A DNA stretch of 33,085 bases, from contig CANJQI010000044.1 in NCBI GenBank assembly GCA_947476215.1, positions 1 through 33,085 of the forward strand, read 5' to 3'. The stretch's first letter is position 1. Each line of letters starts with the position of its first letter. Positions 4,079 to 25,957 of the stretch are shown in pieces. The notes under the pieces were generated by a model, which was given only the letters and a program-made list of their open reading frames with translations, ran no database searches and had not been told where the DNA came from. This DNA comes from Betaproteobacteria bacterium. GTDB taxonomy: Bacteria; Pseudomonadota; Gammaproteobacteria; Burkholderiales; SG8-41. Made by a program: the position numbers and the translations under genes.

Positions 4079-4199
4079 GATGTTCCCTCGATCAGACGCA
4101 CGCCCGCCGCGCACGGATTAAACGCAAAGGGAAACGCCCAAGGGAAACCAAGCCAGAACCGCAAACGGTGCCGAACGCCGCTTCCCCGCGGCATTACCC

Positions 4200-4370
4200 A
4201 ACCCAATGGAGTCAGGCCGGTCTACGGGCTCGTGAGATTTGACGCGCCGCCTTCCCGGGCCGTTAAGCCCAGTGGCACAGTGGCGCGCCCGCGCTCAATT
4301 ACCGTTGCGGGGGCAGCACAAGAATTGGTAATCCTAAAACTACCGCACTTGTTTCCCGATTATCCCAAAC
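4200..4370 (-). promoter_or_regulatory. Cobalamin (AdoCbl) riboswitch
   Basis: Read on the minus strand, the leader contains GCTGCCCCCGCAACGGTAA (within 4299-4319), the near-invariant core of the B12 element. Upstream is GGGAAACAAGTG (4346-4357), whose ACAAG can pair with CTTGT just before the core. Downstream are GCCACTGGG (~4265-4275) and GAGCCCGTAGACCGGCC (near 4215-4231), matching the conserved GCCACTG and AGGAGACC-type elements. Order and spacing fit the class. The remaining leader to the btuB start (4079-4199) would hold the expression platform; a small GCCGC/GCGGC hairpin is visible there, but no clear U-run, so control of ribosome access is possible. The rest of this gene-free stretch, 4371-4602, shows nothing else I can name. 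Confidence 0.9.
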
Positions 4371-4602
4371 CGAAAGTCTCAATTCAGGCACCTGGAACCG
4401 CATCGCCGCAAACACTGCGCTCGCAAACGATGCCGGTGAATTTTACCTTACGCTCGCGGCGGGCACGGCTGCAGCCGGCTTTCCTGCCAATTCTCGGCGG
4501 CCATACGACAAGTGCCGGAATGCGTTCAGAAATTCAGTTAATCCCACCGTTTATGAGTAACGATATTGGCATCAAATCACATTCAAAATTAGGCGTTAGC
4601 TG

Positions 4603-5169: not shown

Positions 5170-5355
5170 CGAGTCTACCCCCTGCGGTGTTCGTCAGGGC
5201 TTTGACGTCTTTGAACCAATATTTGTAAAAAGGTTGCGGACCTAAGCGGCACTGTTGTGCGCGTCCTACTGGAAGCGCCTGATGTGCCCGGAACGCGACC
5301 ACTTGAGCCATTGGTTCAAGACACGGGCTCAACGGCATCTGCGGGGGACCCACAT
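5170..5355 (+). ncRNA. ssrS: 6S RNA
   Basis: The segment directly after zapA carries the hallmarks of proteobacterial 6S RNA. Its 5' part has CCCCCTGCGGTGTTCG (5178-5193). Its 3' part has CACTTGAGCCATTGGTTCAAG (about 5300-5320), followed by a GGCATCTGCGGGGG end (5333-5347). The ends pair as CCCCC/GGGGG and GGTG/CATC around a small internal loop, closing the long rod that mimics an open promoter and binds sigma70 RNA polymerase. The TTGAACC/GGTTCAA-type hairpin in the 3' arm is conserved in the family. Exact 5' and 3' ends are estimates. It may be processed from the zapA transcript or have its own promoter; a GCCAGCC/GGCTGGC repeat lies at 5147-5168. Confidence 0.85.
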
Positions 5356-10223: not shown

Positions 10224-11213
10224 TTATTCGGATTTGATGCCCGCAGCCTTGATCACGGTCGCCCATTTGGCAATCTCATTGCGGATAAAGGTCGCGAATT
10301 CTTCGGGTGTACCGGGCGCGGTATCGGAGCCGGCCGCGGCAAAACGCTCGCGAACTTCCGGCGTATTGAGTATGCGCACGACGTCCGCGTTGAGTCTGCC
10401 AATAATCGGTTGCGGCGTGGCAGCCGGCGCGAGCAGACCATTCCAGATGCTGGCCTGGTAGCCCGGCACACCGGCTTCCGAAATCGTCGGCAGATGGGGC
10501 GCCAATGCCGACCGTTTGAGGCCGCTGGTCGCAAGCGACCTGAGTTTGCCGGTCTTCACCATCTGCAGTCCGGTCGTCAACGCTGGAAATGCAAAGTGAA
10601 GATCACCCGACAGAACGTCGGTCAGGGCCTGCGCCGTGCCGCGATAAGGCACATGCACGATATTGACGTGAGCCATATAGGCGAACAGCGACCCTGCGAG
10701 ATGCCCGCTCGTGCCGACGCCGGCCGACGAGTAATTCAGTTGTCCGGGCCGCGTCCTGGCAATCGCCACGAAGTCCTTGACGGCCCTGACCGGCATACTG
10801 GGATGCACCATCAGCACCAGCGGCGTCGACGATAACAGGCTGATGGGCGCCAGATCCCGCACCGTGTCATAGGGCAGTTTGGTCATGCTCGGATTGGTGA
10901 AGTGAGCGCTGGCAATTTGCAGCACCGTGTGTCCGTCGGGCGGCGACTTCACGACCGCCTCGGTGCCTATGATGTTGCTGGCCCCCGCGCGATTGTCGAC
11001 CACGACTTGTTGGCCCAGACTCTCGGTCAGGCGCTGCGCCATCAGGCGGCCCACGATATCGGCGTTGCCGCCGGGCGCCGAGGGAATAACATAACGGACA
11101 ACATGCGTCGGATACTCGGCCGCGCCGGCAACGCACGACACGATGCTCATGGCGATAACAATATGGCTCGATGGATGACTCAAACGACTTCCATGACATG
11201 AACGGCGCGGCAT
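10224..11213 (-). CDS. Bug-family TTT periplasmic substrate-binding protein (copy A)
   Basis: A 329-residue periplasmic solute receptor of the tripartite tricarboxylate transporter class, with an N-terminal Sec signal ending VAGAA (about 30-34). Family landmarks are YVIPSAPGGNADIVGRLMAQ, VVDNRAGASNIIG, SPPDGHTVL, and later LNYSSAGVGTSGHLAGSLF and VPYRGTAQAL. These receptors grip a small carboxylate through ordered waters between two lobes. ATG 11213 is selected because AGGGG stands 5 nt upstream and the hydrophobic signal starts there; the open frame extends further upstream without support. It is divergent from the PrpD-like gene at 11375, with which it shares an intergenic region holding overlapping promoters. 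No TctA/TctB membrane genes are nearby. The ligand is unknown. Confidence 0.88.
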   Translation of the reverse strand: MPRRSCHGSRLSHPSSHIVIAMSIVSCVAGAAEYPTHVVRYVIPSAPGGNADIVGRLMAQRLTESLGQQVVVDNRAGASNIIGTEAVVKSPPDGHTVLQIASAHFTNPSMTKLPYDTVRDLAPISLLSSTPLVLMVHPSMPVRAVKDFVAIARTRPGQLNYSSAGVGTSGHLAGSLFAYMAHVNIVHVPYRGTAQALTDVLSGDLHFAFPALTTGLQMVKTGKLRSLATSGLKRSALAPHLPTISEAGVPGYQASIWNGLLAPAATPQPIIGRLNADVVRILNTPEVRERFAAAGSDTAPGTPEEFATFIRNEIAKWATVIKAAGIKSE

Positions 11214-11313
11214 AGCTACCCCTAGAACATCATTAAATGAATTCCCTGCCAACTCTGGGCAGATTCCACGCGCAGCGTATCCGATCTGATGGATAGTCTC
11301 GTGTACTTTATGG

Positions 11314-11322
11314 ATTGTATCA
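11314..11322 (-). promoter_or_regulatory. Extended -10 promoter for Bug copy A
   Basis: On the minus strand the sequence is TGATACAAT, a TGn-TACAAT extended -10. No good -35 is seen, as is common for this class. It overlaps the -35 box of the opposing promoter. Confidence 0.4.
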
Positions 11323-11344
11323 ATATCATGGCGGTGCATATAAT
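11315..11344 (+). promoter_or_regulatory. Sigma70 promoter for PrpD-like gene 1
   Basis: TTGTAT (11315-11320) and a perfect TATAAT (11339-11344) are separated by 18 nt. Transcription would start near 11351, leaving a ~24 nt leader with an AAGGAA ribosome site before GTG 11375. ATTG-TAT-CAAT (11314-11324) is a small dyad over the -35 box and could be an operator. Confidence 0.6.
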
Positions 11345-11374
11345 CCCGGAAACAGCTTCAACAAGGAAACGACC

Positions 11375-12817
11375 GTGTCCGCAAATAGCCCCAACGCACG
11401 TGCCCAATTCGATCCGGTGCTCATCGATATCGCCGACTACGCGCTACGCTACAAGGTGCGCAGCGCCGAAGCCTACAACACGGCACGCCTGTGCCTGATG
11501 GATACCATCGGTTGCGGTCTGGAAGCACTGTCGTACCCGGCGTGCACCAAACTGCTGGGTCCCGTGGTGCCCGGTGCAATCCTGTCGCGTGGCGCAAGAG
11601 TACCCGGCACATCATTCGAACTCGACCCGGTGACCGCGGCATTCAACATCGGCTGCATGATCCGCTGGCTCGATTTCAACGACACCTGGGTCGCCGCGGA
11701 ATGGGGCCATCCGTCGGACAATCTCGGCGGCATACTCGCGATTGCCGACTACCTGTCGCGCCGGAACATCGCGCAACGCGAAAAACCGCTGTTGATGCGC
11801 GATGTGCTGACCGCAATGATCAAGGCGCACGAAATACAAGGTGTCATCTCGCTCGAAAATGCGTTCAATCGCGTCGGACTCGATCACGTGATGCTGGTCA
11901 AGATCGCAACCACTGCCGTGGTTACGGCCATGCTCGGCGGCACGCGGGACGAAATCGCCAATGCGGTGTCGAATGCCTGGATAGACGGTCAACCGCTACG
12001 CACCTACCGCCAGGCGCCGAATACCGGCTCGCGCAAGTCGTGGGCGGCCGGCGACGCCACCAGCCGCGGCGTGCGCCTCGCCTTGATGGCCATCAAAGGC
12101 GAAATGGGCTATGCCACCGCGCTGTCCGCCAAGACCTGGGGATTTTACGATGTGCTGTTCGAAGGCAAGCCGCTCAAATTCCCACAGCGCTACGGTTCCT
12201 ATGTCATGGAACACGTGCTCTTCAAAATATCGTACCCGGCCGAGTTCAATGCGCAGACTGCGGTCGAGTGCGCGATTTTGCTGCACCCCAAGGTTAAGGA
12301 CCGGTTGCCCGAGATTGACAAAATTGTCATTACGACCCATGAAACGGCGCTGCGCATCATAGACAAGCAGGGGCCGCTCAGCGGTCCTGCCGATCGCGAC
12401 CACTGTATCCAGTACATGGCTGCAATCGGTCTCATCAAAGGTAACCTGACCGCGGCCGATTACGAAGACGAGGTTGCCGCCGACCCGCGCATAGATGCGC
12501 TGCGCGCGAAAATGGTGTGTGTGGAAAACAAGCAATGGACACGTGACAAGCACGATCCCGAAAAACGTTCGAACCCCAACGCGATACAGGTGTTCTTCAA
12601 GGACGGCAGCAGGACCGATAACATGGCCGTCGAGTATCCTGTAGGCCATCGCCGCCGCCGCAAGGAAGGCGTACCATTACTCGAAGCCAAGTTCAAGACC
12701 AATCTCGCGCGCTGTCTTGCGCCCAAACAGCAAGCGGCTATCGTCGCGCTTTGCGGCAACCAGAAGCGGCTGGAAGCCGCCACGGTCCACCAGTTCATGG
12801 ATCTTTTCGTCGTTTGA
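11375..12817 (+). CDS. MmgE/PrpD-family protein 1 (2-methylcitrate dehydratase-like)
   Basis: A 480-residue cytosolic protein of the MmgE/PrpD fold, whose known members dehydrate 2-methylcitrate, isomerise aconitate or decarboxylate cis-aconitate. Family landmarks are the N-terminal helical [16 protein letters not shown], then [10 protein letters not shown] followed by [16 protein letters not shown], the [21 protein letters not shown] stretch, and the C-terminal [24 protein letters not shown] 11375 is chosen over an upstream in-frame ATG/TTG because AAGGAA sits 6 nt before it and the upstream codons lie inside the promoter. It is followed after 20 nt by Bug copy B, making a receptor-enzyme pair that suggests uptake and processing of a related carboxylate. 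The substrate is not identifiable from sequence. Confidence 0.88.
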
Positions 12818-12837
12818 AGATCAAGGAGAAATACACT

Positions 12838-13806
12838 ATGAAACAAAGTGTTATGGTAATTGTGCCGGTGGTGATCACCGGCCTGCTGCCGCTCACGGTT
12901 TGCGCCGCGGATGCGCCTGCCGCTCAGTTTCCCGAACGCTCGGTACGGTTGCTGGTCGGATTTGGCGCCGGCGGCGGCACGGACATCGCCGCGCGCCTGA
13001 TCGGCAAATCACTGTCCGAGACGTGGGGCAGGAGCGTGGTCATCGAAAACAAAGCCGGCGCCGACGGCAGCATCGCCGCGGCCGAGATCGCCAAGTCCAA
13101 ACCCGACGGCTACAACGTGCTGTTTACGACCACCGCCATCACCATCACGCCGGCGCAACAGGCCCAGCCGTTCGATCCGGTTAGCAGTTTCGAACCGATT
13201 ACGCTGATCGGCTCATCGCCGAGCATGGTGGTCGTGCATCCTTCGCTTCCCGTGAAATCGATCAAGGAACTCATTACCCTTGCAAAGGCGCGACCGGGCG
13301 CGCTTAGTTTTGCCTCGAGCGGCATAGGCACGGTGCCGTATCTAGCCACCGAACTGTTCCGCCAGACCACGGCCACCGACATGGTACATATCCCGTACAA
13401 AGGGGGCGGGCCTGCGGTGATCGGCATCCTGAGCGGCGAAGTGCAGTTGCTGTTCAATGGCATAGGCCCTGTATATCCGCATTACAAGTCGGGCCGGTTG
13501 AGGGCGCTCGCCGTCACCTCCGCCAAACGACAGACGGTGGCCCCGGAACTGCCGACCATGATAGAAAGCGGACTGCCCGGATTCAACACCGCAACCTGGT
13601 ATGGGGTTTTCGCGCCGGCGAAAACGCCGCGCGATATCGTACACAAATTGAACACGGATTTCGTCAAAGCAACCCGCTTACCCGATATCCGCACCAACCT
13701 GGAAAATCAGGGTTTCGTCGTCGATGGCAGTTCCGCGGAGGAACTTGCGACTCTGGTGAAATCCGACCTTGCGACCTGGTCGCGCGTCATCAGGAATATC
13801 AAGTGA
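12838..13806 (+). CDS. Bug-family TTT periplasmic substrate-binding protein (copy B)
   Basis: A 322-residue periplasmic receptor. Its signal peptide (MKQSVMVIVPVVITGLLPL... to AADA) is followed by the canonical LLVGFGAGGGTDIAARLIG, VVIENKAGADGSIAAAEIA and KPDGYNVLF segments, and the second lobe has MVHIPYKGGGPAVIGILSGEV. This is the complete classical Bug pattern. ATG 12838 is preceded by AAGGAG at 9 nt. It lies 20 nt downstream of the PrpD-like gene 1 and is almost certainly co-transcribed with it. It is convergent with the SDR gene, whose stop is only 7 nt beyond. Confidence 0.9.
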   Translation: MKQSVMVIVPVVITGLLPLTVCAADAPAAQFPERSVRLLVGFGAGGGTDIAARLIGKSLSETWGRSVVIENKAGADGSIAAAEIAKSKPDGYNVLFTTTAITITPAQQAQPFDPVSSFEPITLIGSSPSMVVVHPSLPVKSIKELITLAKARPGALSFASSGIGTVPYLATELFRQTTATDMVHIPYKGGGPAVIGILSGEVQLLFNGIGPVYPHYKSGRLRALAVTSAKRQTVAPELPTMIESGLPGFNTATWYGVFAPAKTPRDIVHKLNTDFVKATRLPDIRTNLENQGFVVDGSSAEELATLVKSDLATWSRVIRNIK

Positions 13807-14617: not shown

Positions 14618-14715
14618 GCGCATCGCCGCTGCACCTCGAAAAACCGCGATGTGATATCGTGGACACAACGAGCGGCTACCATAGGCCCAGCCGACTTATC
14701 CTATTCGGAATTGAA

Positions 14716-15687
14716 ATGCAGACCACAAGACTTTTTGCTGCGGTGATTTTGGTTCTCGCGGCGATACCCGGCATCGGAACGGCGCACGCGCAAACTTCCG
14801 CACAGTCCTACCCAAGCAAATCAGTACGCATCGTCACGACCTCACCCGGCGGGGGCAGCGATTTCGCGGCGCGCATCGTTGCGCAAGGGCTTTCCAGCGC
14901 GTTCGCCCAAGCTGTCATCGTGGACAATCGCGCCGGCGGATTTACCGCGGTAGAAAACGTCGCCAATGCGCAACGTGATGGCTATACCCTGCTGCTGTAC
15001 GCCAATACCATGTGGATCGCCCCATTCCTGCAAAAAGTATCCTATGACCCGATCAAGGATTTTGCACCGGTCACGCTGGCAGGATTTTCAGCGAGCGTGC
15101 TGGCCGCGCATCCAGGCGTGCCCGCCAGTTCAGTCAAGGAACTTATCGCGCTGGCCAAGGCCCGACCGGCCACCCTTGCCTACGGAACCGGGCCATCCGG
15201 CTCCATCGATCATCTGGCAGGTGAACATCTGAAAGCGCTGACGGGTATCGACCTGCTGCACATCCCGTACAAAGGCGGTGGTCCGGCCGTCATCGCGGCG
15301 ATCGGCGGCCAGGTGCAACTGGCATTCGCGTCCACGGCATCGATCGCCCCACAGGTGAAAGCGGGCAAATTAAAAGCACTGGCGGTCGCCAGTGCGCAAC
15401 CCACGGCAATGTTTCCCGGACTGCCGACAATGGCGGCGACACTGCCCGGATTTGAAGCGGGAACCCTGTACGGCGTATTTGCACCGGCCTACACGCCGGC
15501 AGCGATCATTAACATCGTGAACCGGGAAATCGTGCGCATCCTGACCAGCAAGGACGTCATGGAGAAATTTGTCAACAATGGCACTGAAGTCATCGCCAAT
15601 ACACCGACGCAATTTGCCGCCATCATCACATCCGATACCGCCAAATGGGGCAAGGTGATCCGGGATGCGGGTATCAAGGGCGAATGA
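14716..15687 (+). CDS. Bug-family TTT periplasmic substrate-binding protein (copy C)
   Basis: A 323-residue periplasmic receptor, first of four tandem copies. The signal peptide ends GTAHAQ (about 30). The segments are RIVTTSPGGGSDFAARIVAQ, VIVDNRAGGFTAVENVA, QRDGYTLLLYANTMWIAPFLQKVSYDP (in part), LLHIPYKGGGPAVIAAIGG and a WGKVIRDAGIKGE end. The loop after VDNR differs from the classical PGAGGNIG and is shared with copy D. ATG 14716 is chosen because the signal peptide begins there; GGA lies about 7 nt upstream. Copy D follows after 27 nt, so they are probably in one operon. Confidence 0.88.
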   Translation: MQTTRLFAAVILVLAAIPGIGTAHAQTSAQSYPSKSVRIVTTSPGGGSDFAARIVAQGLSSAFAQAVIVDNRAGGFTAVENVANAQRDGYTLLLYANTMWIAPFLQKVSYDPIKDFAPVTLAGFSASVLAAHPGVPASSVKELIALAKARPATLAYGTGPSGSIDHLAGEHLKALTGIDLLHIPYKGGGPAVIAAIGGQVQLAFASTASIAPQVKAGKLKALAVASAQPTAMFPGLPTMAATLPGFEAGTLYGVFAPAYTPAAIINIVNREIVRILTSKDVMEKFVNNGTEVIANTPTQFAAIITSDTAKWGKVIRDAGIKGE

Positions 15688-15714: not shown

Positions 15715-16725
15715 ATGCACATACTTGATAAGAGAACACCGTTGAAATCTCGACATTTCAGAATGATAGTCTCCATGGGTTCCGCAATGCTGAGCGCCAG
15801 CGCGGCGTCCGCCCAAACTCATATGAGCAGCACCGCACAGGCCTACCCCAACAAGCCGGTACGCATCGTCACGACCTCGCCCGGCGGCGGCAGTGACTTT
15901 ACGGCGCGCATCATCGCGCAAGGACTGACGGCTGCACTGAATCAGCCGGTGATCGTGGAGAACCGGGGCGGTGGATTGTCGGCGGTGGAATCGGTGGCGC
16001 GCGCGCAACGCGACGGATATACACTGATGCTCTACGCCAACACGATGTGGATCACGCCGTTTCTGCAGAAGGTTTCCTATGATCCCGTCAAGGATTTCGC
16101 TACCATTACCACGGTAGGCGTTTCACCGCAGGTTTTGATTGTGCATCCATCGGTGGCAGCAACATCGATCAAGCAGCTTATCGCGTTGGCCAAGGCCAAA
16201 CCGGGCGCGCTGAATTACAGCTCGAGTGGGACCGCCTCTCCACCGCATCTCACGGCCGAGTATTTCAAGGCGCTGACCGGCGCCGATCTCACGCACATTC
16301 CATATAAAGGTTCCGGTCCGGCGATCACGGCGCTGCTGGCTAGTCAGGTGCAGATCGCCTTCGCGGCGGCGGGCTCGGTGATGGCGCAGGTGAAAGCAGA
16401 ACGATTGCGCGCGTTGGGTGTCACCAGCCTGGAGCCTTCCATACTGGTGCCCGGCGTGCCTACGATTGCATCCTCGGGTCTGCCCGGATTTGAAGCGATC
16501 TCGATCTTTGGCATGTGGGCGCCGGCGGCGACGCCCACCGCGGCCATCAACCGGCTCAACAAGGAAATCGCGGCTGTGCTTGGCCGTACTGACGTCAAAG
16601 AAAAGTTCATCAACAATGGCGTCGAAGCCGCTGTCACCAGTCCCGCGCAATTTGCCGTGCTGATCAAGACCGACACCGCCAAATGGGGCAAGGTGATCAA
16701 AGACTCCGGCATCAAAGGCGAGTAG
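15715..16725 (+). CDS. Bug-family TTT periplasmic substrate-binding protein (copy D)
   Basis: A 336-residue periplasmic receptor and clearly the closest relative of copy C: RIVTTSPGGGSDFTARIIAQ, RDGYTLMLYANTMWITPFL, KVSYDPVKDFATI and a C-terminal KWGKVIKDSGIKGE match it nearly residue for residue. The N-terminus is extended (MHILDKRTPLKSRHFRM) before the hydrophobic signal, so an internal ATG at 15763 is an alternative start; GGAGACAGAGAGA upstream favours 15715. The ENRGGGLSAVESVA loop is non-classical, as in copy C. The pair looks like a fairly recent tandem duplication with diverging pockets. Confidence 0.87.
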   Translation: MHILDKRTPLKSRHFRMIVSMGSAMLSASAASAQTHMSSTAQAYPNKPVRIVTTSPGGGSDFTARIIAQGLTAALNQPVIVENRGGGLSAVESVARAQRDGYTLMLYANTMWITPFLQKVSYDPVKDFATITTVGVSPQVLIVHPSVAATSIKQLIALAKAKPGALNYSSSGTASPPHLTAEYFKALTGADLTHIPYKGSGPAITALLASQVQIAFAAAGSVMAQVKAERLRALGVTSLEPSILVPGVPTIASSGLPGFEAISIFGMWAPAATPTAAINRLNKEIAAVLGRTDVKEKFINNGVEAAVTSPAQFAVLIKTDTAKWGKVIKDSGIKGE

Positions 16726-16760: not shown

Positions 16761-17732
16761 ATGTCTATTAAAAACAAAAGCTTATGCATTTCATCCGCAG
16801 TGGTGCTGGGACTGGGCACGGGGTGGGCATACGCGCAAGGCGCAGCGCCGGCATACCCGAGCAAAGCGGTGCGCATCGTCACCAATACGCCGGGCGGCAG
16901 TACCGATCTCGCATCACGGTTGATCGCACAAGGCGTTACGGCTGCGCTGGGCCAACCAGTCATCATCGAAAACCGGCCGGCCATCGTGCTGGTTGAAATC
17001 GTGTCCAAGGCACAGCCGGACGGATATACCGTACTGGTGGAAAGCGGCACGCTGTGGATCGCACCCTTCCTGCAAAAAGTTCCTTATGACCCGATCAAGG
17101 ATTTCTCGCCCATCACCTTGCTGACGCGTGCGCCTAACCTGCTGGTCGTGCATCCCTCGCTTGCGGCACACTCGGTCAAGGAACTGATAGCGCTCGCCAA
17201 GGCCAAGCCCGGCGCGCTGAATTATGCATCGTCTACAGCGGGATCATCGAATCACCTCGCCGGCGAAATGCTCAACGCCATGGCCGGCATTAAAATCGTG
17301 CGTGTCCCCTACAACGGCACCGGGCCGGCACTCAACGGCGTGATCGGCGGCGATGTGCAGATGCTGTTCGCGAATGCGGCTGCCGGCATGCCGCATGTGA
17401 AATCGGCACGCCTGCGCGCGCTGGGCGTGGCCAGTGAAAAGCCGTCACCGCTGGCGCCAGGCTTGCCTACGTTATCAGCGTCGGGTTTGCCGGGGTTTGT
17501 CGCGGTAACGACGAATGGCATGTGGGCGCCGGCCAGGACGGCTACGCCCATCGTCAGGCGGCTCAACCAGGAGATCGTGAAATTCCTGAATTCAGCGGAG
17601 GCAAGAGACAAATTTCTGAATGCGGGATTTGAAACCGTGGCCAACTCACCGGAAGAAGCGGTGGCTGAAATCAAGACGGATATGGCGCGCATGAGCAAGG
17701 TGATCAAGGACGCCGGAATCAAAAGTGAGTAA
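16761..17732 (+). CDS. Bug-family TTT periplasmic substrate-binding protein (copy E)
   Basis: A 323-residue periplasmic receptor with a signal peptide ending WAYAQ (about 26). It has RIVTNTPGGSTDLASRLIAQ, QPDGYTVLVESGTLWIAPFLQ, VPYNGTGPALNGVIGGDV and a SKVIKDAGIKSE end. The loop after IIENRP is shortened and lacks the glycine-rich PGAGGN element (it reads AIVLVEIVSK), which should change the shape of the binding cleft. AGGGG stands 5 nt before ATG 16761. It lies 35 nt after copy D and overlaps the start of copy F, so copies C to F form one transcription unit. Relationship to C and D is clear from the shared WIAPFLQK segment. Confidence 0.87.
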   Translation: MSIKNKSLCISSAVVLGLGTGWAYAQGAAPAYPSKAVRIVTNTPGGSTDLASRLIAQGVTAALGQPVIIENRPAIVLVEIVSKAQPDGYTVLVESGTLWIAPFLQKVPYDPIKDFSPITLLTRAPNLLVVHPSLAAHSVKELIALAKAKPGALNYASSTAGSSNHLAGEMLNAMAGIKIVRVPYNGTGPALNGVIGGDVQMLFANAAAGMPHVKSARLRALGVASEKPSPLAPGLPTLSASGLPGFVAVTTNGMWAPARTATPIVRRLNQEIVKFLNSAEARDKFLNAGFETVANSPEEAVAEIKTDMARMSKVIKDAGIKSE

Positions 17733-18741
17733 TCTGGTTAGACATTGTTTCGGTGTGCGGTCTGTGGATCGCCAGCCTTGGACAACGTGCGGTTACGTTT
17801 TTCTGGTTGCTCTGCTTGACGTGTATGCTGGATACGCCTGCGCCCAGAACTATCCCGTGCGCAGTGTGCGTGTCGTCGTGCCCGTTACGCCGGGCGGAGG
17901 CACCGACTTGGTGGCGCGCATGGTCAGCCAGAAATTATCTGAAAATATCGGCCAGCCATTCGTGATTGAAAATCGTCCGGGCGCCGGCAACGTGATCGGC
18001 AGTGCCTTGGTAGCCAGTTCCAAGCCCGACGGTTACACGCTGCTGGTGGTGCCTATCAGCCACGCAGTCAATGTCAGCCTGGTCAAGCTGCCGTTTGATC
18101 CGATCGCGGATTTCGCGCCTATTGTGCACCTCGGGTCCGCGCCCAGCATAGTCGCCGTGCACCCGTCGTTACCGGTGAAGACGGTCAGCGACCTGGTGCG
18201 GCTCGCGCGCTCGCGTCCCGGCGCGATGGGTTACGGCTCCGGCGGCAATGGCAGTTCAACGCACCTCGCGGCGGAACTCCTGAAGCTGCTCGCTAAAATC
18301 AATCTTTATCATGTGCCGTACAAGGGTGGCGACCCGGCACTGGTGAGCGTCTTGAGCGGCCAGACATCGATGTGTGTCGGCAGCCTGCCCGCGGCGTTGC
18401 CACACGTCAATTCGCGCCGCTTGAAAGCGCTGGCGATTACCAGCGCAATGCGCTCGCCGGTACTGCCGGAGTTGGTGACCGTTGCCGAATCAGGTGTGCC
18501 CGGCTATGAATACTCGGGATGGTACGGACTGCTGGCACCCGCGGGCACGCCGGCGGCAGCCATAGAACGCTTGAACACCGAAGTCAACAAGGTATTACAG
18601 GACCCGGCCATCGTGCAGAAACTCGCCGCCGACGGCACGCAGCCGGTAGGCGGGACGCCGGCACACTTTGCGGACCTGATCAAAAGCGAAATCGCAAAGT
18701 GGGCCAAAGTCGTGAAGAGCGCCAATATCCGTGCGGAATAG
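17725..18741 (+). CDS. Bug-family TTT periplasmic substrate-binding protein (copy F)
   Basis: A 338-residue periplasmic receptor with the classical pattern VVVPVTPGGGTDLVARMVSQ, FVIENRPGAGNVIGSALVA and KPDGYTLLVV, then LYHVPYKGGDPALVSVLSGQ. It is therefore less related to copies C-E than they are to each other. The N-terminus (about 35 residues with CGYVFLVALLDVYAGYACAQ) acts as the signal. The chosen GTG 17725 overlaps the copy E stop by eight bases; a GTG at 17755 is an alternative. Its own stop overlaps the start of the downstream adaptor protein by 11 bases, an unusual link between a solute receptor and an efflux-type adaptor. Confidence 0.86.
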   Translation: MSNLVRHCFGVRSVDRQPWTTCGYVFLVALLDVYAGYACAQNYPVRSVRVVVPVTPGGGTDLVARMVSQKLSENIGQPFVIENRPGAGNVIGSALVASSKPDGYTLLVVPISHAVNVSLVKLPFDPIADFAPIVHLGSAPSIVAVHPSLPVKTVSDLVRLARSRPGAMGYGSGGNGSSTHLAAELLKLLAKINLYHVPYKGGDPALVSVLSGQTSMCVGSLPAALPHVNSRRLKALAITSAMRSPVLPELVTVAESGVPGYEYSGWYGLLAPAGTPAAAIERLNTEVNKVLQDPAIVQKLAADGTQPVGGTPAHFADLIKSEIAKWAKVVKSANIRAE

Positions 18742-21469: not shown

Positions 21470-22822
21470 ATGGATAGCACCGCCGATTATATTAGTTCTT
21501 ATGCAGCCGAGCTTGCTTACACGGATTTGAATCCCAAGGCGTTGCACGCCGTCAAGAGAAGCCTGATCGATTCCCTCGGTTGCGCGCTCGGCGCATTTGC
21601 CGCGGAACCCGTGAAGATCGCCCGGCGACTCGCATCGCGCACCAGCAGCACGACGCCTGCAACGTTATTCGGAACCCACATCAAGACCACGCCCGAGATG
21701 GCGACGTTTGTGAACGGCATCATGGTGCGTTATCTGGATTTCAGCGACGACTACATCAACAATGACGGTCCGCATCCCAGCGACAATATACCGGCGGTAT
21801 TGGCCATCGCCGAGGCCATGCATGCCGATGGTAAAGCGCTCGTCAGCGGCATCGTGCTTGCCTATGAGCTGGTCGACCGTCTCGTCGACAGTGCCCACTT
21901 CAGAACCCGGGGTTGGGACTACGTAACGGAAACATCGATAGGCAGCGCGCTGGGCGCGGGGAAAGTTCTGGGCTTGTCGAAGCATGCGATGGCGCAGGCG
22001 CTGGCACTCGCCATCGCACCGAATATCGCGGTGCGGCAAACGCGGGCGAGCGAATTGTCGATGTGGAAAGGCTGCGCGGGCCCAAACGGCGCACGCAACG
22101 GTTTATTCGCGGCATTGCTTGCCTCGGAAGGCATGTCGGGCCCCGAGGAAATCATCGAAGGACAATACGGCCTGTGGAAACAGGTGACCGGCCAATTTGC
22201 GCTCGCGCCCTTCGGCGGCAAAGAACGCCCGTACATGATAGAGGAAACGTTCTTCAAATCCATACCGGTGATGTATACCAGCATGTCTCCGGTGGAGACG
22301 GCCCTCAAGTTGCATCCGGAAGTCAACGTCGACGATATCGAATCCATAGACGTTGAAGTCGATGCATTTTCGCTGGCAACCGGCGACAGCCCCGCCAAGC
22401 ACGACCCGCATACGCGCGAGACCGCCGATCACAGCACACCCTATCTGATCGCCGCCGCCCTCGTGGACGGGAAAATTTCAGAAGCGACTTTTACGCCGCA
22501 GCGTTATCGCGACCCGAAGATTCTCGACCTGCTGCGCAGACTGGTCATGCGCGAGAACCCCCAGTTCACGACGGAATGGCCCAAAACTTTCCAGTGTCGC
22601 ATCGAAGTCAAAGGCAAATCGGGCAAACAATGGACCGCACACTTGAAGCACCCGAAAGGGCACCCCGAAAATCCGATGAGCGATCGCGATATCGAGGAAA
22701 AGTTTCTGAAGCTGACGCACGAGACACTGACACCCAAGCAGGCGCGTAACGCGATCGATCTGGTGTGGCGGCTGGAAGAAATCAGGGATGTCGGGGAAAT
22801 TTGCGCCGCGATTGTGGTCTGA
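21470..22822 (+). CDS. MmgE/PrpD-family protein 2
   Basis: A 450-residue cytosolic MmgE/PrpD-fold protein. Landmarks are the N-terminal VKRSLIDSLGCALGAF, then MVRYLDFSDDYINNDGPHPSDNIPAVLAIAE (in part), VLAYELVDRLVDSAHFRTRGWDYVTETSIG (in part), and C-terminal HPEVNVDDIESIDVEVDAF followed by DHSTPYLIAAALVDG. The DHS-PY-IA-AL element is the family's usual C-terminal signature and is closer to canonical PrpD than in protein 1. It probably acts as a dehydratase or isomerase on a citrate-like acid. AGGA lies 9 nt before the ATG. It is followed 129 nt later by the selenoprotein gene on the same strand, and divergent to the flavoprotein gene. Confidence 0.9.
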   Translation: MDSTADYISSYAAELAYTDLNPKALHAVKRSLIDSLGCALGAFAAEPVKIARRLASRTSSTTPATLFGTHIKTTPEMATFVNGIMVRYLDFSDDYINNDGPHPSDNIPAVLAIAEAMHADGKALVSGIVLAYELVDRLVDSAHFRTRGWDYVTETSIGSALGAGKVLGLSKHAMAQALALAIAPNIAVRQTRASELSMWKGCAGPNGARNGLFAALLASEGMSGPEEIIEGQYGLWKQVTGQFALAPFGGKERPYMIEETFFKSIPVMYTSMSPVETALKLHPEVNVDDIESIDVEVDAFSLATGDSPAKHDPHTRETADHSTPYLIAAALVDGKISEATFTPQRYRDPKILDLLRRLVMRENPQFTTEWPKTFQCRIEVKGKSGKQWTAHLKHPKGHPENPMSDRDIEEKFLKLTHETLTPKQARNAIDLVWRLEEIRDVGEICAAIVV

Positions 22823-22902: not shown

Positions 22903-22951
22903 CCCGCGTTGGCGCGTCAGTGAATAACTCACCCTACGGATGGAGAACGCC

Positions 22952-24694
22952 ATGTCAGCAGCGAGCAACGATGGTTACTATGAAGCGTACTGGCCGCGCA
23001 CGCCGCGTCAGACCAAGATCAAGCCGTTGGCGCCGCGACTCAACACACTCGAAGGCAAAGTGGTTGCCCAGCTTTGGGACAACGTTTTTCGCGGTGATGA
23101 AATATTTTTGATCCTTGAGGAAGCGCTCAAGGCGCGATTTCCTGGTATCCGCTTCATAAACTGGCGCGATTTCGGTTCCATCCATGGCGGCACGGAACGC
23201 GAAATACTCGCCGGGCTACCGGCAAAATTCAAAGAAATGGGGGTAGACGCGGTCATCTGCGGCATGGCCTGTTGAGGCAGCTGTACGCCCGCCGTGTTGC
23301 GGGCCAGTGCAGTGTGCGAGACAGCGGGGGTGCCGACTGCGTCACTGACGTGCGAGGGATTTCTGACCGCCGCGGCGGCGACATCGATCGGATTGGGTTA
23401 CCCCAATCTCCCGGTGGCCATGGTTCCGGGCCATGTCGGCACGCAAAGCGCGGACGAAATGCGCCGCAACATCCTCGAGGTTACGGTCGATCGCGTCATC
23501 GAGAACCTGACACGCATGCCGGCTATCGTAGGCACCAAGGGCGAACCGGGCGCGCGCGACATCGTGTGCAAAGGCGGATACCAAGCCATCAATCGTTACT
23601 TTTATAAGAACGAACTCAGCGATGGCTTGCCCATCGTCCCGCCGACTCACGAGGAAATCGACAAATTCCTGCGTTTCGTCGACCGCGATCCCAATGAGGT
23701 GCTGGGGATTATCCTGCCTGACAGCCGCGCGGCGACGATCTGGAGCGTTGCGGTCAATGGCGTCATGGCGGGCTGCCGCCCCGAGTACATGCCGGTGCTG
23801 GTGGCGCTGATCGAAGCCATGTGCGACCCGGCCTATGGCGTCGAACATAGCGGCAACACGCCGGGGGGCGAGACTTTGATCACCATCAATGGCCCCATCA
23901 TCAAGCAACTCGAATTCAACTACACACAGGGAGCGATGCGCGACGGCTTCATGCCGAACACATCCATCGGTCGATTCTGGCGCCTGTACCTGCGTAACGT
24001 CGCGGGATTTCTGCTCCATAAAAATGACAAGTGCACGCACGGCACGACGTGGCGCGTGGTCATGGCCGAGAACGAAGACGTGCTGAAGAAGATCAACTGG
24101 GAAACCACCAGTCAGGAGATGGGATACGCGGCGGGCGACAACACGGTGACGGTTGCCCGATATACGGCTGGCGGCTCGTTTCCATCAGTATCGGGCAGCA
24201 CGCCGGAGGAAATATTGCCCTACATCGCGGACGCGGTATTGAAGTACCACAGCTGGCACATACATTTCACGCAGAACGGCAATGAAACGCTGCGTCCGCT
24301 GGTGGTGTTCAGCCCCATCATCGCGGAAACCATAGCCAAGGCCGGCTGGTCCAAGCACGATGTCAAACGCTACTTTTTCGAGCACACGAAGATGAAGGCC
24401 GGAGACTTCGAACACGTGTTACGCGACTGGACCGTCAAAGGCCAGTGGAGCCTCGCGGAGCGCGTGCAACTGGGCGACATGCCGAAGTTGTTCCACGAAT
24501 CGGATGATCCTGACCGCATGGTGCCCATCGTGTGGGATCCCAAGGATTTCATGATCGCGGTGAGCGGTGATCCGCTGCGCAATACGGCCTATGTGTTCGC
24601 CCATAATGCGTTCATGGGCTATCCCGTCGGCAAGAAGATCAAACTGGTCAAGGACTGGGAGAACATGCTGGCTGCAGCCAAGGCCGCTGACTAG
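22952..24694 (+). CDS. UGSC-family selenoprotein (in-frame TGA = selenocysteine) with C-terminal domain of unknown function
   Basis: A 580-residue protein if TGA 23273-23275 is read as selenocysteine (Sec108). The codons around it are GCC-TGT-TGA-GGC-AGC-TGT, giving Ala-Cys-Sec-Gly-Ser-Cys. This is the motif that names the UGSC family, a UxxC redox pair resembling thioredoxin CxxC. The frame is open without a break on both sides. Residues 1-~205 form the UGSC domain (YEAYWPRTP, LAPRLNTLEGK, FRGDEIF, then after Sec TPAVLRASAVCE and VAMVPGHVG). Residues ~220-580 start with DGLPIVPPT (224-232), then VNGVMAGCRPEYMPV, a conserved second domain of unknown function. GGAG stands 6 nt before ATG 22952; an in-frame ATG at 22940 is less likely. 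A SECIS-like hairpin follows the TGA. Redox chemistry is inferred; the reaction is unknown. Confidence 0.85.
23281..23307 (+). promoter_or_regulatory. Bacterial SECIS-like hairpin after the Sec codon
   Basis: Lower stem CTG (23281-23283)/CAG (23305-23307), a bulge TAC (23284-23286, containing U), upper stem GCCCGC (23287-23292)/GCGGGC (23299-23304) and a six-base loop CGUGUU (23293-23298). The loop begins 17 nt after TGA and has G in its second position, fitting the described distance and loop rules for bacterial SECIS elements bound by SelB. Confidence 0.75.
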
Positions 24695-24739: not shown

Positions 24740-24988
24740 TCAAGATTGAAAATCGGATCGGTGATCAATGACCTTGATGCCATGAAATCGCTTTTCCAGT
24801 TCTTCGTTAATGATGGGGTACATCTGGTCGCTGCGGTACACCCAGCCCCAAAACTCACACACCGTCTTTCCGCTGAGATTCACATCAGCCAGCGCCGGAG
24901 CCAGGTTCACCCGAGGTGATGTGGATTTCCCCAAGGGCCACACGACTTCATAGAGTGGTTCCGATGAAGCAGTCTGCTGTTGATCCAT
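24740..24988 (-). CDS. Stand-alone or truncated UGSC N-terminal domain protein
   Basis: An 82-residue protein similar only to the first ~70 residues of the neighbouring selenoprotein: YEVVWP aligns with YEAYWP, NLAPAL with PLAPRL, LSGKTVCEFWGWVYRSDQ with LEGKVVAQLWDNVFRGDE, and LEKRFHGIKVI with LKARFPGIRFI. It stops with TGA before the region that carries the Cys-Sec-Gly-Ser-Cys centre. Reading through that TGA gives no GSC motif, so it is a true stop. AGGAG lies about 8 nt upstream of ATG 24988, so it is probably translated. It is convergent with the selenoprotein gene, 45 nt away. It is either a free partner subunit or a remnant of a duplicated gene; I cannot tell which. Confidence 0.65.
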   Translation of the reverse strand: MDQQQTASSEPLYEVVWPLGKSTSPRVNLAPALADVNLSGKTVCEFWGWVYRSDQMYPIINEELEKRFHGIKVIDHRSDFQS

Positions 24989-25198
24989 GTCCTGACTCTC
25001 CTGAAAAATTGATGCAAGCGGAAGTGGCCCGTTTTCGTTGCGGCTGGCCTCGGATGTGAATGACTCTTTACACAATGGTGAAGCGATCATGAATTCTAAC
25101 GCGAACATGCGTCGTTGACAGTACCGCTCAATTCGACGACGATCACGCGTAGATTCATCTCTACGCTCCCCTCTCTTACCGATCAACAGTCCACAGCC

Positions 25199-25957
25199 AT
25201 GCAAAACGCCACAGCGGGTCCTACGCTGGATCTGATCGAAAATTTTCCGGCGTATGAAAAAGCCGCGATTTATCTGAAGAAAATTATTGCCGAGCGCAAC
25301 CTTAAAATAATTGCCGACATTGGCGGCGGTGCCAACCCTTTGCTCGATGACAAGTTTGTTGCCGACCGCGATATTCAGTATTTCCTGATCGACAAGTCGG
25401 CGAGCGAACTGAAGAAAGCCAGTGCCCTGTACAACAAGATTGAAGCAGACGCCATCAGCGACAGCGTCGTGTTTCAAAAACAACTCGCCGGCAGAAAGTT
25501 CGACCTGATTTTTACTCACATGTTTCTGGAACATCTTGAAGACCCGATCCAGGCGCACAGGAATTTCTACGACGCATTGAACCCGGGCGGTCTGTGTGTG
25601 CACGTCTACCCGTCGCCCAACAACCTGCCGCTGATGTTCAATCGGTTGCTGCCGGAAACGGTATCGGCGTGGCTGCTCAAGACCGCTCAGCCGTTCCGCG
25701 ATCTGCAAGGTTCACAACGCAAATTCAAGGCCTACTATCGGATGTGCGGCGCGCCGAGCGCCGCGTTGAGCGCAGCATTCGTGGCCATGGGATACGCTGT
25801 AAGGCAACACACCGGCTACATCGGACATACTTACTATCTTCGTTTTAAACCTGCGGCATTTCTTGAAGAAAAAATCCGGAGAATAATTCACAAACTGCAA
25901 CTTCCATTGACCAGCGGTTGTTTGCTTGTTTTGGAAAAAACCGTCATGAATTCGTGA
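25199..25957 (+). CDS. Class I SAM-dependent methyltransferase
   Basis: A 252-residue Rossmann-type methyltransferase. Motif I is ADIGGGANP (39-47), the acidic end of strand two is YFLIDKS (61-67), and motif post-I/IV is FDLIFTHMFLEHLEDP (101-116), followed by ALNPGGLCVHVYPSP. The C-terminal part (FRDLQGSQRKFKAYYRMCG, HTYYLRF) resembles methyltransferases of lipid or glycan pathways, but the target is unknown. The frame is open from a TTG at 25115, but ATG 25199 is preferred because the conserved fold starts soon after; no good ribosome site is seen. A TTGACA lies at 25115-25120, but no convincing -10 follows. It is divergent from the small UGSC-like gene. Confidence 0.8.
   Translation: MQNATAGPTLDLIENFPAYEKAAIYLKKIIAERNLKIIADIGGGANPLLDDKFVADRDIQYFLIDKSASELKKASALYNKIEADAISDSVVFQKQLAGRKFDLIFTHMFLEHLEDPIQAHRNFYDALNPGGLCVHVYPSPNNLPLMFNRLLPETVSAWLLKTAQPFRDLQGSQRKFKAYYRMCGAPSAALSAAFVAMGYAVRQHTGYIGHTYYLRFKPAAFLEEKIRRIIHKLQLPLTSGCLLVLEKTVMNS

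Follow-up and report, generated by a model that had tools for sequence, protein, structure and literature searches.

The locus described here raises a question of reading, namely whether two open frames that lie in phase and are parted by a single TGA are two ordinary genes or one gene in which the TGA is read as selenocysteine (Sec), and, in the second case, what the product might do. The window, that is, the whole stretch of DNA analysed, comprises 33,085 nucleotides of a betaproteobacterial genome assembly. Translation of positions 22952-24694 yields 107 residues, a single TGA, 472 further residues and a TAG, with zero other stops, and the TGA stands in the context GMAC-TGA-GSC (Cys107-TGA-Gly-Ser-Cys111). 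The original prediction had proposed just such a pair of in-phase frames joined by one TGA, and the 580-codon frame with its single internal stop bears this out; with TGA as Sec the product carries U-Gly-Ser-Cys, the exact UGSC motif that had been claimed, inside a match to the Pfam UGSC family. It had also been anticipated that gene calling would split the gene and misplace the start of its C-terminal part. In the list of open reading frames (ORFs) obtained with translation table 11 the region appears as a 111-residue ORF (22940-23275) and a 466-residue ORF (23294-24694) that starts at a GTG inside the gene, so standard gene calling would indeed cut it in two. The start at ATG 22952 is plausible because a GGAG lies six bases 5' of it; a second in-frame ATG is found at 22940. 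The features of the gene and its immediate surroundings are the following:

22952..24694, + strand: UGSC selenoprotein gene, long (fused) form; 580 codons plus TAG, TGA codon 108 read, very likely, as Sec
22942..22945, + strand: GGAG, likely ribosome-binding site for ATG 22952, read from the sequence
22991..23512, + strand: Sec domain, family PF24696 (UGSC), residues 14-187; 100.1 bits, above the gathering cut-off of 25
23273..23275, + strand: TGA, putative Sec codon 108; Cys111, its UxxC partner, follows three codons later
23287..23304, + strand: putative bacterial SECIS hairpin; arms 23287-23292 and 23299-23304, loop CGTGTT
23525..24691, + strand: partner domain with a DGLPIVPPT motif, a separate frame beside short UGSC genes
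24743..24988, - strand: remnant, the N-terminal part of another UGSC gene, ending before the Sec codon

The in-frame TGA is not a product of chance, because the PF24696 match of the Pfam scan runs across it, 54 UGSC-type genes of the same genome (the window gene included) have a TGA at this codon and, in codon-by-codon alignments, TGA falls on TGA in 14 of 14 homologues (six paralogues from the same genome and eight relatives). Coding constraint is present on both flanks, with dN/dS of 0-0.28 upstream of the TGA (14 comparisons, zero in three with saturated dS) and 0.12-0.35 downstream (14 comparisons). The competing view, in which TGA 23273 is a true stop and a second, separate gene begins at GTG 23294, draws on the plain code 11 reading, which does give two ORFs, and on the use of TGA as an ordinary stop in this genome, where it terminates 34 of the 122 genes for TctC-type solute-binding proteins with a stop read (the other 9 of 131 genes ended at the edge of a piece). 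The same count rules out a global recoding of TGA. This view was nevertheless rejected, and is left with hardly any probability, on the recurrence of TGA at the same codon in 54 genes, the strong constraint across it, the downstream hairpin, the existence of relatives with Cys in genomes without SelB over the cut-off, and the full selABCD set of the genome. As far as sequence evidence can carry it, the reading of TGA 108 as selenocysteine is close to certain, and the gene very likely encodes one selenium-containing enzyme.

The putative SECIS hairpin starts 11 bases 3' of the TGA and was studied in alignments of the 48 bases from the TGA in 49 of the 54 copies, the damaged copies C7 and C45 and the short copies C104, C136 and C14:44693 being left out; single folds of these three short copies differ from the common stem. 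A first type of copies (n=29) shares a 7-pair stem in which 99.5% of cells are paired and seven two-sided changes occur, and a second type (n=20, including the window gene) shares a 6-pair stem with 94.2% of cells paired and five two-sided changes. When the stem is slid by 1-3 columns, pairing falls to 17-56% and 31-50%, respectively. Comparison with synonymous recodings (300 per set, drawn with the codon usage of 158 neighbouring genes) gave a pairing of 0.995 versus a null mean of 0.67 and a maximum of 0.77 for the 29 copies, and of 0.91 versus a mean of 0.55 and a maximum of 0.63 for a set of 23 that includes C104, C136 and C14:44693. For the window sequence alone, 16 of 500 recodings fold equally well. 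At the level of the decoding machinery, the check for selA, selB, selC and selD proposed with the original prediction found all four in the source genome (5.75 Mb in 326 contigs, 98.5% complete, 1.2% contamination) over their family cut-offs: tRNA-Sec (selC) with 74 bits versus a gathering score of 47, SelB with 446 versus 242 and SelA with 584 versus 268, all on contig C221, and SelD with 424 versus 125 on contig C41. The selD gene (C41:26860-27789) itself contains one in-frame TGA. The sequence comparisons support a system in which Sec would be decoded via the downstream hairpin by the genome's own SelA, SelB, SelC and SelD, and in which the Sec domain is paired with a C-terminal partner.

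Exchange between Sec and Cys was followed in related loci retrieved by a scan of named genomes, of which the best 80 of 573 were retained. Position 108 is Sec in 62 and Cys in 10 of the 72 readable loci; the printed context was readable in 71 (61 Sec, 10 Cys), L127 being added later as Sec, and the others comprise seven without a readable partner domain in the frames tried and L143, which begins near the site. All 72 retain the UxxC pair, with Sec or Cys at its first position and Cys at its last. Loci with Cys belong to records titled Curtobacterium, Nocardioides (N. sediminis, locus L145), Treponema, Verrucomicrobia, Lentisphaeria, Bacillota (2), Bacteroidia (2) and an uncultured bacterium. 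Among 30 genomes examined, SelB was found over the cut-off in 14 of 20 with the Sec form versus none of 10 with the Cys form; the six Sec genomes without it are metagenome-assembled genomes (MAGs) whose completeness the search did not report, and one of them, that of L112, holds a partial SelB match (208 bits vs 242). The expectation that homologues would have Cys or Sec at position 108 thus holds for all 72 readable loci of the best 80 of 573, but not for two divergent long paralogues in the source genome itself. These, at C76:16708 (L073) and C80:22300 (L074), have neither Sec nor the second Cys and read CNAGI in the motif region; they are possibly a non-redox offshoot. The Chloroflexi MAG JACPQD supplies ten of the best 80 of 573 loci, nine with Sec and one unread (L123, L126, L129, L134, L148, L153, L154, L155, L160 and L162), a set that may represent a second, independent UGSC expansion.

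The number of copies in the source genome is large. PF24696 gave 58 matches, and 51 of the 54 genes whose Sec codon is TGA are free of further in-frame stops, the remaining three (C7, C45 and C307) having one. About 49 copies appear complete, that is, 32 long ones, 16 short ones and C27:25164, which is cut only by the boundary of the stretch taken and was counted as complete. A regular-expression scan of 765 kb of other stretches of the genome found no further Sec-UGSC motif. The domain was present in 15 of 15 genomes of the genus and 74 of 74 of the family searched, and the copies are therefore not peculiar to one assembly; among the matches listed, with up to 40 scored per genome in the family search, copy numbers range from 1 to 58. 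In a sample at the level of the order, 37 of 300 genomes carry the domain, 34 of them over the cut-off. Mixing within the MAG may contribute to the exact copy number. In a tree of the Sec domain the nearest relative of 40 of 48 copies from this genome is another of its own copies, a result that says little since the outside sequences were picked for their resemblance to the long form and the two C37 copies were omitted. The remnant beside the window gene lies in an ORF (24740-25708) that matches the UGSC profile with E 3e-15 and has no Pfam match when scanned alone; its position next to an intact gene suggests that copies arise and die out within the family.

Together with SelD, one GrdB and two PrdB-like genes, the 54 UGSC-type genes bring the tally of genes with in-frame TGA to 58 before any full inventory, or to roughly 53 with only the apparently complete UGSC copies. 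Selenoproteome size in bacteria is an active topic, and the accessible part of a 2026 review gives 57 genes and, in a recent MAG, 63 as upper values (PMC13188914). The accessible text of the survey by Peng in 2016, covering more than 5200 genomes, gives the figures 26 and 33 for UGSC, read here as organisms and genes, versus the 54 UGSC-type genes of the source genome alone (PMC5029168). Our literature search found no paper describing a large UGSC expansion; the groundwater study behind the 63-gene figure was not among its results.

The conserved downstream domain announced by the original prediction proved real and forms the second half of what, on comparison of the copies, would be a two-part system, a Sec domain plus a DGLPVVPPT partner, either fused or neighbouring. 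In the long copies (519-589 residues among complete ones) the DGLPVVPPT signature belongs to a second domain, and in the short copies (175-208 residues) the partner is encoded by a separate gene. Clustering recovered 14 separate partner genes, all on the same strand as the UGSC gene and no more than 300 bases from it, and for 17 of 17 short copies, of which 16 are complete and one lies at a contig end, a profile scan located a partner frame alongside on the same strand. As for the damaged short copies, C7 has a partner frame and C45 has none within 3.5 kb. Positions invariant in the 32 long copies of the genome include 108, Cys111, Asp224, Asn269, Cys275, Arg341, Glu373 and Trp383. Earlier publications already describe the family, with its Sec motif and a fusion form, as far as the accessible parts of the sources go (PMC2398784, PMC13188914, PMC9312934), and UGSC has been listed there as an uncharacterised selenoprotein since 2007-2008 (PMC2398784, PMC13188914). 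The portion available of the 2008 marine survey describes a fusion of UGSC with a conserved domain that had no assigned function, 'Unknown_1' (PMC2398784), which would correspond to the partner domain. The window gene shares the Sec domain and the motif with the family (PF24696, NF041046), but stays under the NF041046 equivalog cut-off, with 44.8 bits vs 125.

Attempts to place the partner domain among known families gave little. An AlphaFold2 model was obtained with a mean pLDDT of 89.3 and a pTM of 0.90 for the whole protein, and with a pLDDT of 90.6 for the partner domain. No Pfam match better than E 0.05 was found in 15 partner-domain proteins; searches of the PDB by sequence gave best values of E 0.071 and 0.033, at chance level, and no significant relative of the partner domain; and Foldseek returned nothing at E 0.001 or better for the AlphaFold2 models of the whole chain or the partner domain. 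Whole-chain matches were scattered over FtsZ and Rossmann-like proteins, none reaching that level. Fumarase chains occupy 15 of the top 16 Foldseek ranks of the partner, but with E of at least 1e-3 and TM-scores near 0.23, which is why these matches are not evidence of fold, and no fumarase family appears among the Pfam matches of the 15 partner proteins; identity with class I fumarase was rejected. A GrdE-type identity found no support either, given an E of 0.099 against the GrdE-type protein of the same genome and no PF09338 match in the 15 partner proteins at E 1.

The Sec domain itself led to GrdB, the Sec subunit of glycine/sarcosine/betaine reductase (PF07355). The GrdB of the source genome aligned with the UGSC profile Sec on Sec (probability 86%, E 5e-6), and its last 135 residues alone gave E 5e-7, versus E 0.03 for the first 300 residues and E 0.004 for the reversed sequence. 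This relation rests on one GrdB sequence compared with one profile, and in that comparison GrdB surpassed 129 of 130 control ORFs (best of the 129, E 0.0006); the one that scored better is the ORF with the UGSC remnant in the window. The one PrdB-like protein examined from this genome reached a probability of 12% and E 0.0024, a level that the best unrelated controls (E 0.0006 and 0.001) also attain. The Sec domain thus probably shares a remote ancestry with that of GrdB, whose Sec-on-Sec match beats the controls, but it is attached to a different partner, for no alignment of the partner domain with the GrdE-type protein was obtained. Formal membership was rejected in both cases: the window gene has no Pfam match to GRDB (PF07355) at E 0.01, and reaches only E 0.0099 and 15.3 bits vs a cut-off of 300 for PrdB (D-proline reductase, TIGR04483). 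UGSC thus resembles GrdB in the distant profile match and in having a partner subunit, but the large N-terminal part of GrdB is missing and the UGSC partner is not GrdE-like; it resembles PrdB in the UxxC motif and a weak profile match, but by score, as seen above, the PrdB-like protein of the genome stays at control level.

The GrdB gene with in-frame TGA (L198:4790-7551, contig C148; 443 residues, STUGTCTRC) is followed by a GrdE-type gene (PF09338), and its host is apparently a betaproteobacterium. The Pfam GRDB match to this protein reaches the final position of the model immediately ahead of the TGA, as if the model had been truncated there artificially. The two PrdB-like genes with in-frame TGA, L199 (C52:8444-8797, - strand, and upstream) and L200 (C99:17647-18000, - strand), have the context TP[VI]-U-PNCTC and a C-terminal extension, 406 residues being read for the C52 gene.

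Concerning the chemistry, the original prediction had taken the UxxC pair as a hint of redox catalysis, which fits the probable distant relation to GrdB and the presence of a thioredoxin reductase (TrxR)-like gene near UGSC in 10 of the best 80 of 573 related loci. These loci belong to several phyla (Alpha- and Betaproteobacteria, Nocardioides, a Lachnospiraceae MAG and others); the TrxR-like genes share the strand of the UGSC match and are separated from it by about 50 bases to 2.8 kb, with CxxC in 10 of 10 and Pyr_redox_2 in the three scanned by Pfam. One such locus, L125 of Vineibacter terrae CC-CFT640, combines the TrxR-like gene with a Sec form of UGSC, and SelB exceeds the cut-off in that genome. 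The other 70 of the best 80 of 573 have no TrxR-like gene within the stretches examined, and no TrxR-like frame was detected in the UGSC regions of the source genome at E 1e-10. The UxxC motif and the TrxR-like neighbours would also suit a thioredoxin-like thiol/selenol oxidoreductase, engaged in disulfide exchange or in peroxide or protein repair, with the partner as an accessory. In thioredoxin, the CxxC comes after the first strand. Sec108, by contrast, is predicted by the model to follow a strand in the middle of a strand-helix repeat (E37-41, E67-69, E100-106, E129-134, E155-158), no thioredoxin is found among the 50 whole-chain Foldseek matches listed, the best remote relative examined is GrdB, and dozens of paralogues, each with its partner, fit substrate-specific enzymes better. 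A thioredoxin-like function, which the accessible part of the 2008 marine survey assumed (PMC2398784), is therefore regarded as unlikely.

The genes around UGSC are given here as context. On the contig of the window gene they include:

21470..22822, + strand: MmgE/PrpD family gene, 129 bases upstream of the window gene and on the same strand
10224-11339, - strand: TctC-type solute-binding protein gene
11315-12817, + strand: PrpD gene among the TctC genes (Pfam PrpD on 11315-12814)
12751-13806, + strand: TctC-type gene
14659-15687, + strand: TctC-type gene
15715-16725, + strand: TctC-type gene
16761-17732, + strand: TctC-type gene
17725-18741, + strand: TctC-type gene

The first of these TctC genes was identified by Pfam, the first and the last in the genome search, and the other four by sequence pattern. 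Counted with a clean TctC model, a TctC gene is the direct neighbour (partner skipped) of 35 of the 54 UGSC genes of the genome and lies within 2.5 kb of 45 of them, with a density of 2.7 frames per 10 kb around UGSC vs 1.6 and 1.3 in two control sets (400 and 365 kb). TctC genes are dense everywhere in the genome and the TctC-UGSC link is therefore weak; the association was set aside as a strong clue in view of the control stretches. Near-full TctC frames number 90 in the 765 kb of control and 132 in the 550 kb around UGSC, which extrapolates to roughly 740 in 5.75 Mb; at least 150 were found in the genome search. The accessible text of a study on Rhodoplanes reports 434 TctC as unprecedented (PMC5994714). 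In 12 Chloroflexi loci among the best 80 of 573, the binding proteins form another cluster, with SBP_bac_5 in the one scanned.

Other neighbours were assessed in 95 scanned proteins (the MmgE/PrpD gene of the window and 94 of 102 listed proteins) and include TauD (7), FAD_binding_2 (7), CoA-transferase III (6), MFS (5), Pyr_redox_2 (5, best E 1.6e-8), PGA_cap (4) and TPP enzymes (3); an MmgE/PrpD-like cluster, of which one member was scanned by Pfam, recurs in 8 of the best 80 of 573 related loci. The hydratase-like MmgE/PrpD, the CoA-transferases and the TPP enzymes are the type of neighbours that a two-part Sec lyase, isomerase or hydrolase might have, an enzyme that would use Sec as nucleophile or base and leave the overall redox state unchanged. 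The predicted place of Sec at a strand-to-helix turn, as for a nucleophile, would suit this chemistry, and the weak partner Foldseek matches are mostly class I fumarases and cyclic-amide hydrolases. These matches have E 1e-3 or worse and TM-scores near 0.23, however, and a non-redox function accounts poorly for the UxxC pair kept in all 72 readable relatives and for the TrxR-like neighbours in 10 of the best 80 of 573 loci; it is accordingly held to be improbable.

The reading favoured here is that of a single two-domain UGSC selenoenzyme with a GrdB-like Sec mechanism, although, taken as a whole statement, it is offered tentatively and with slightly less than even confidence. The Sec domain would work as the Sec domains of GrdB and PrdB do, the partner domain holding a small carboxylate while Sec108 makes a nucleophilic attack on a carbon-heteroatom bond of this substrate. 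The selenium-bound intermediate would then be resolved by Cys111 as a selenenyl-sulfide, and a flavoprotein of the thioredoxin-reductase type would restore the selenol. In this picture the paralogues, of which there are dozens, would differ in substrate specificity, each UGSC copy perhaps handling a different small acid, and the very numerous TctC-type receptors may import the acids; the TctC expansion suggests organic acid substrates, a clue whose weight is reduced by the controls. Precedents, as given in the accessible parts of the sources, are GrdB, PrdB and the proposed fluoroacetate reductase (PMC10838667, PMC13188914). Substrate-specific paralogues of GrdB are known, and in Synergistota FarBE has been proposed as a fluoroacetate reductase, a GrdB-type Sec enzyme acting on a C-F bond in an organism with an enlarged GrdB gene set, according to the portion available of that work (PMC10838667). 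FarBE is alike in that a GrdB-type Sec enzyme is proposed to attack a bond of a small acid, but it belongs, unlike UGSC, to the true GrdB/GrdE family in anaerobes. The GrdB-like proposal is weakened because the window gene has no Pfam GRDB match and a weak PrdB match, the partner is not detectably related to GrdE, the UGSC regions of the source genome have no TrxR-like frame at E 1e-10, and two long paralogues lack Sec and Cys111.

At a broader level, it is conceivable, though rather doubtful, that an environmental lineage of Betaproteobacteria has assembled Sec-dependent two-part reductases into a modular array, a GrdB-related Sec domain and a partner lacking any known fold match having been multiplied into dozens of substrate-specific enzymes, with hundreds of TctC receptors in the genome. 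If so, GrdB-like cleavage of C-X bonds would extend beyond the classical amino-acid fermenters and this selenoproteome would be among the largest in bacteria; should every copy act on a substrate of its own, C-X bond chemistry would have a natural library in this set. UGSC becomes a testable enzyme system through its expansion, its constant partner and its link to GrdB. The UGSC family itself, with its Sec motif and a fusion form, is already known; as far as our literature search found, four things are new: the multiplication of UGSC to dozens of copies per genome throughout a betaproteobacterial family, a partner that is either fused or adjacent, the profile match between UGSC and GrdB, and the TrxR-like neighbour.

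Finally, Rfam detects two RNA elements elsewhere in the window: a cobalamin riboswitch at 4198-4410 (- strand), the ORF downstream of which we take to be TonB-receptor-like, and a 6S RNA at 5176-5351 (+ strand), adjoined by an ORF that is presumably ZapA-like.
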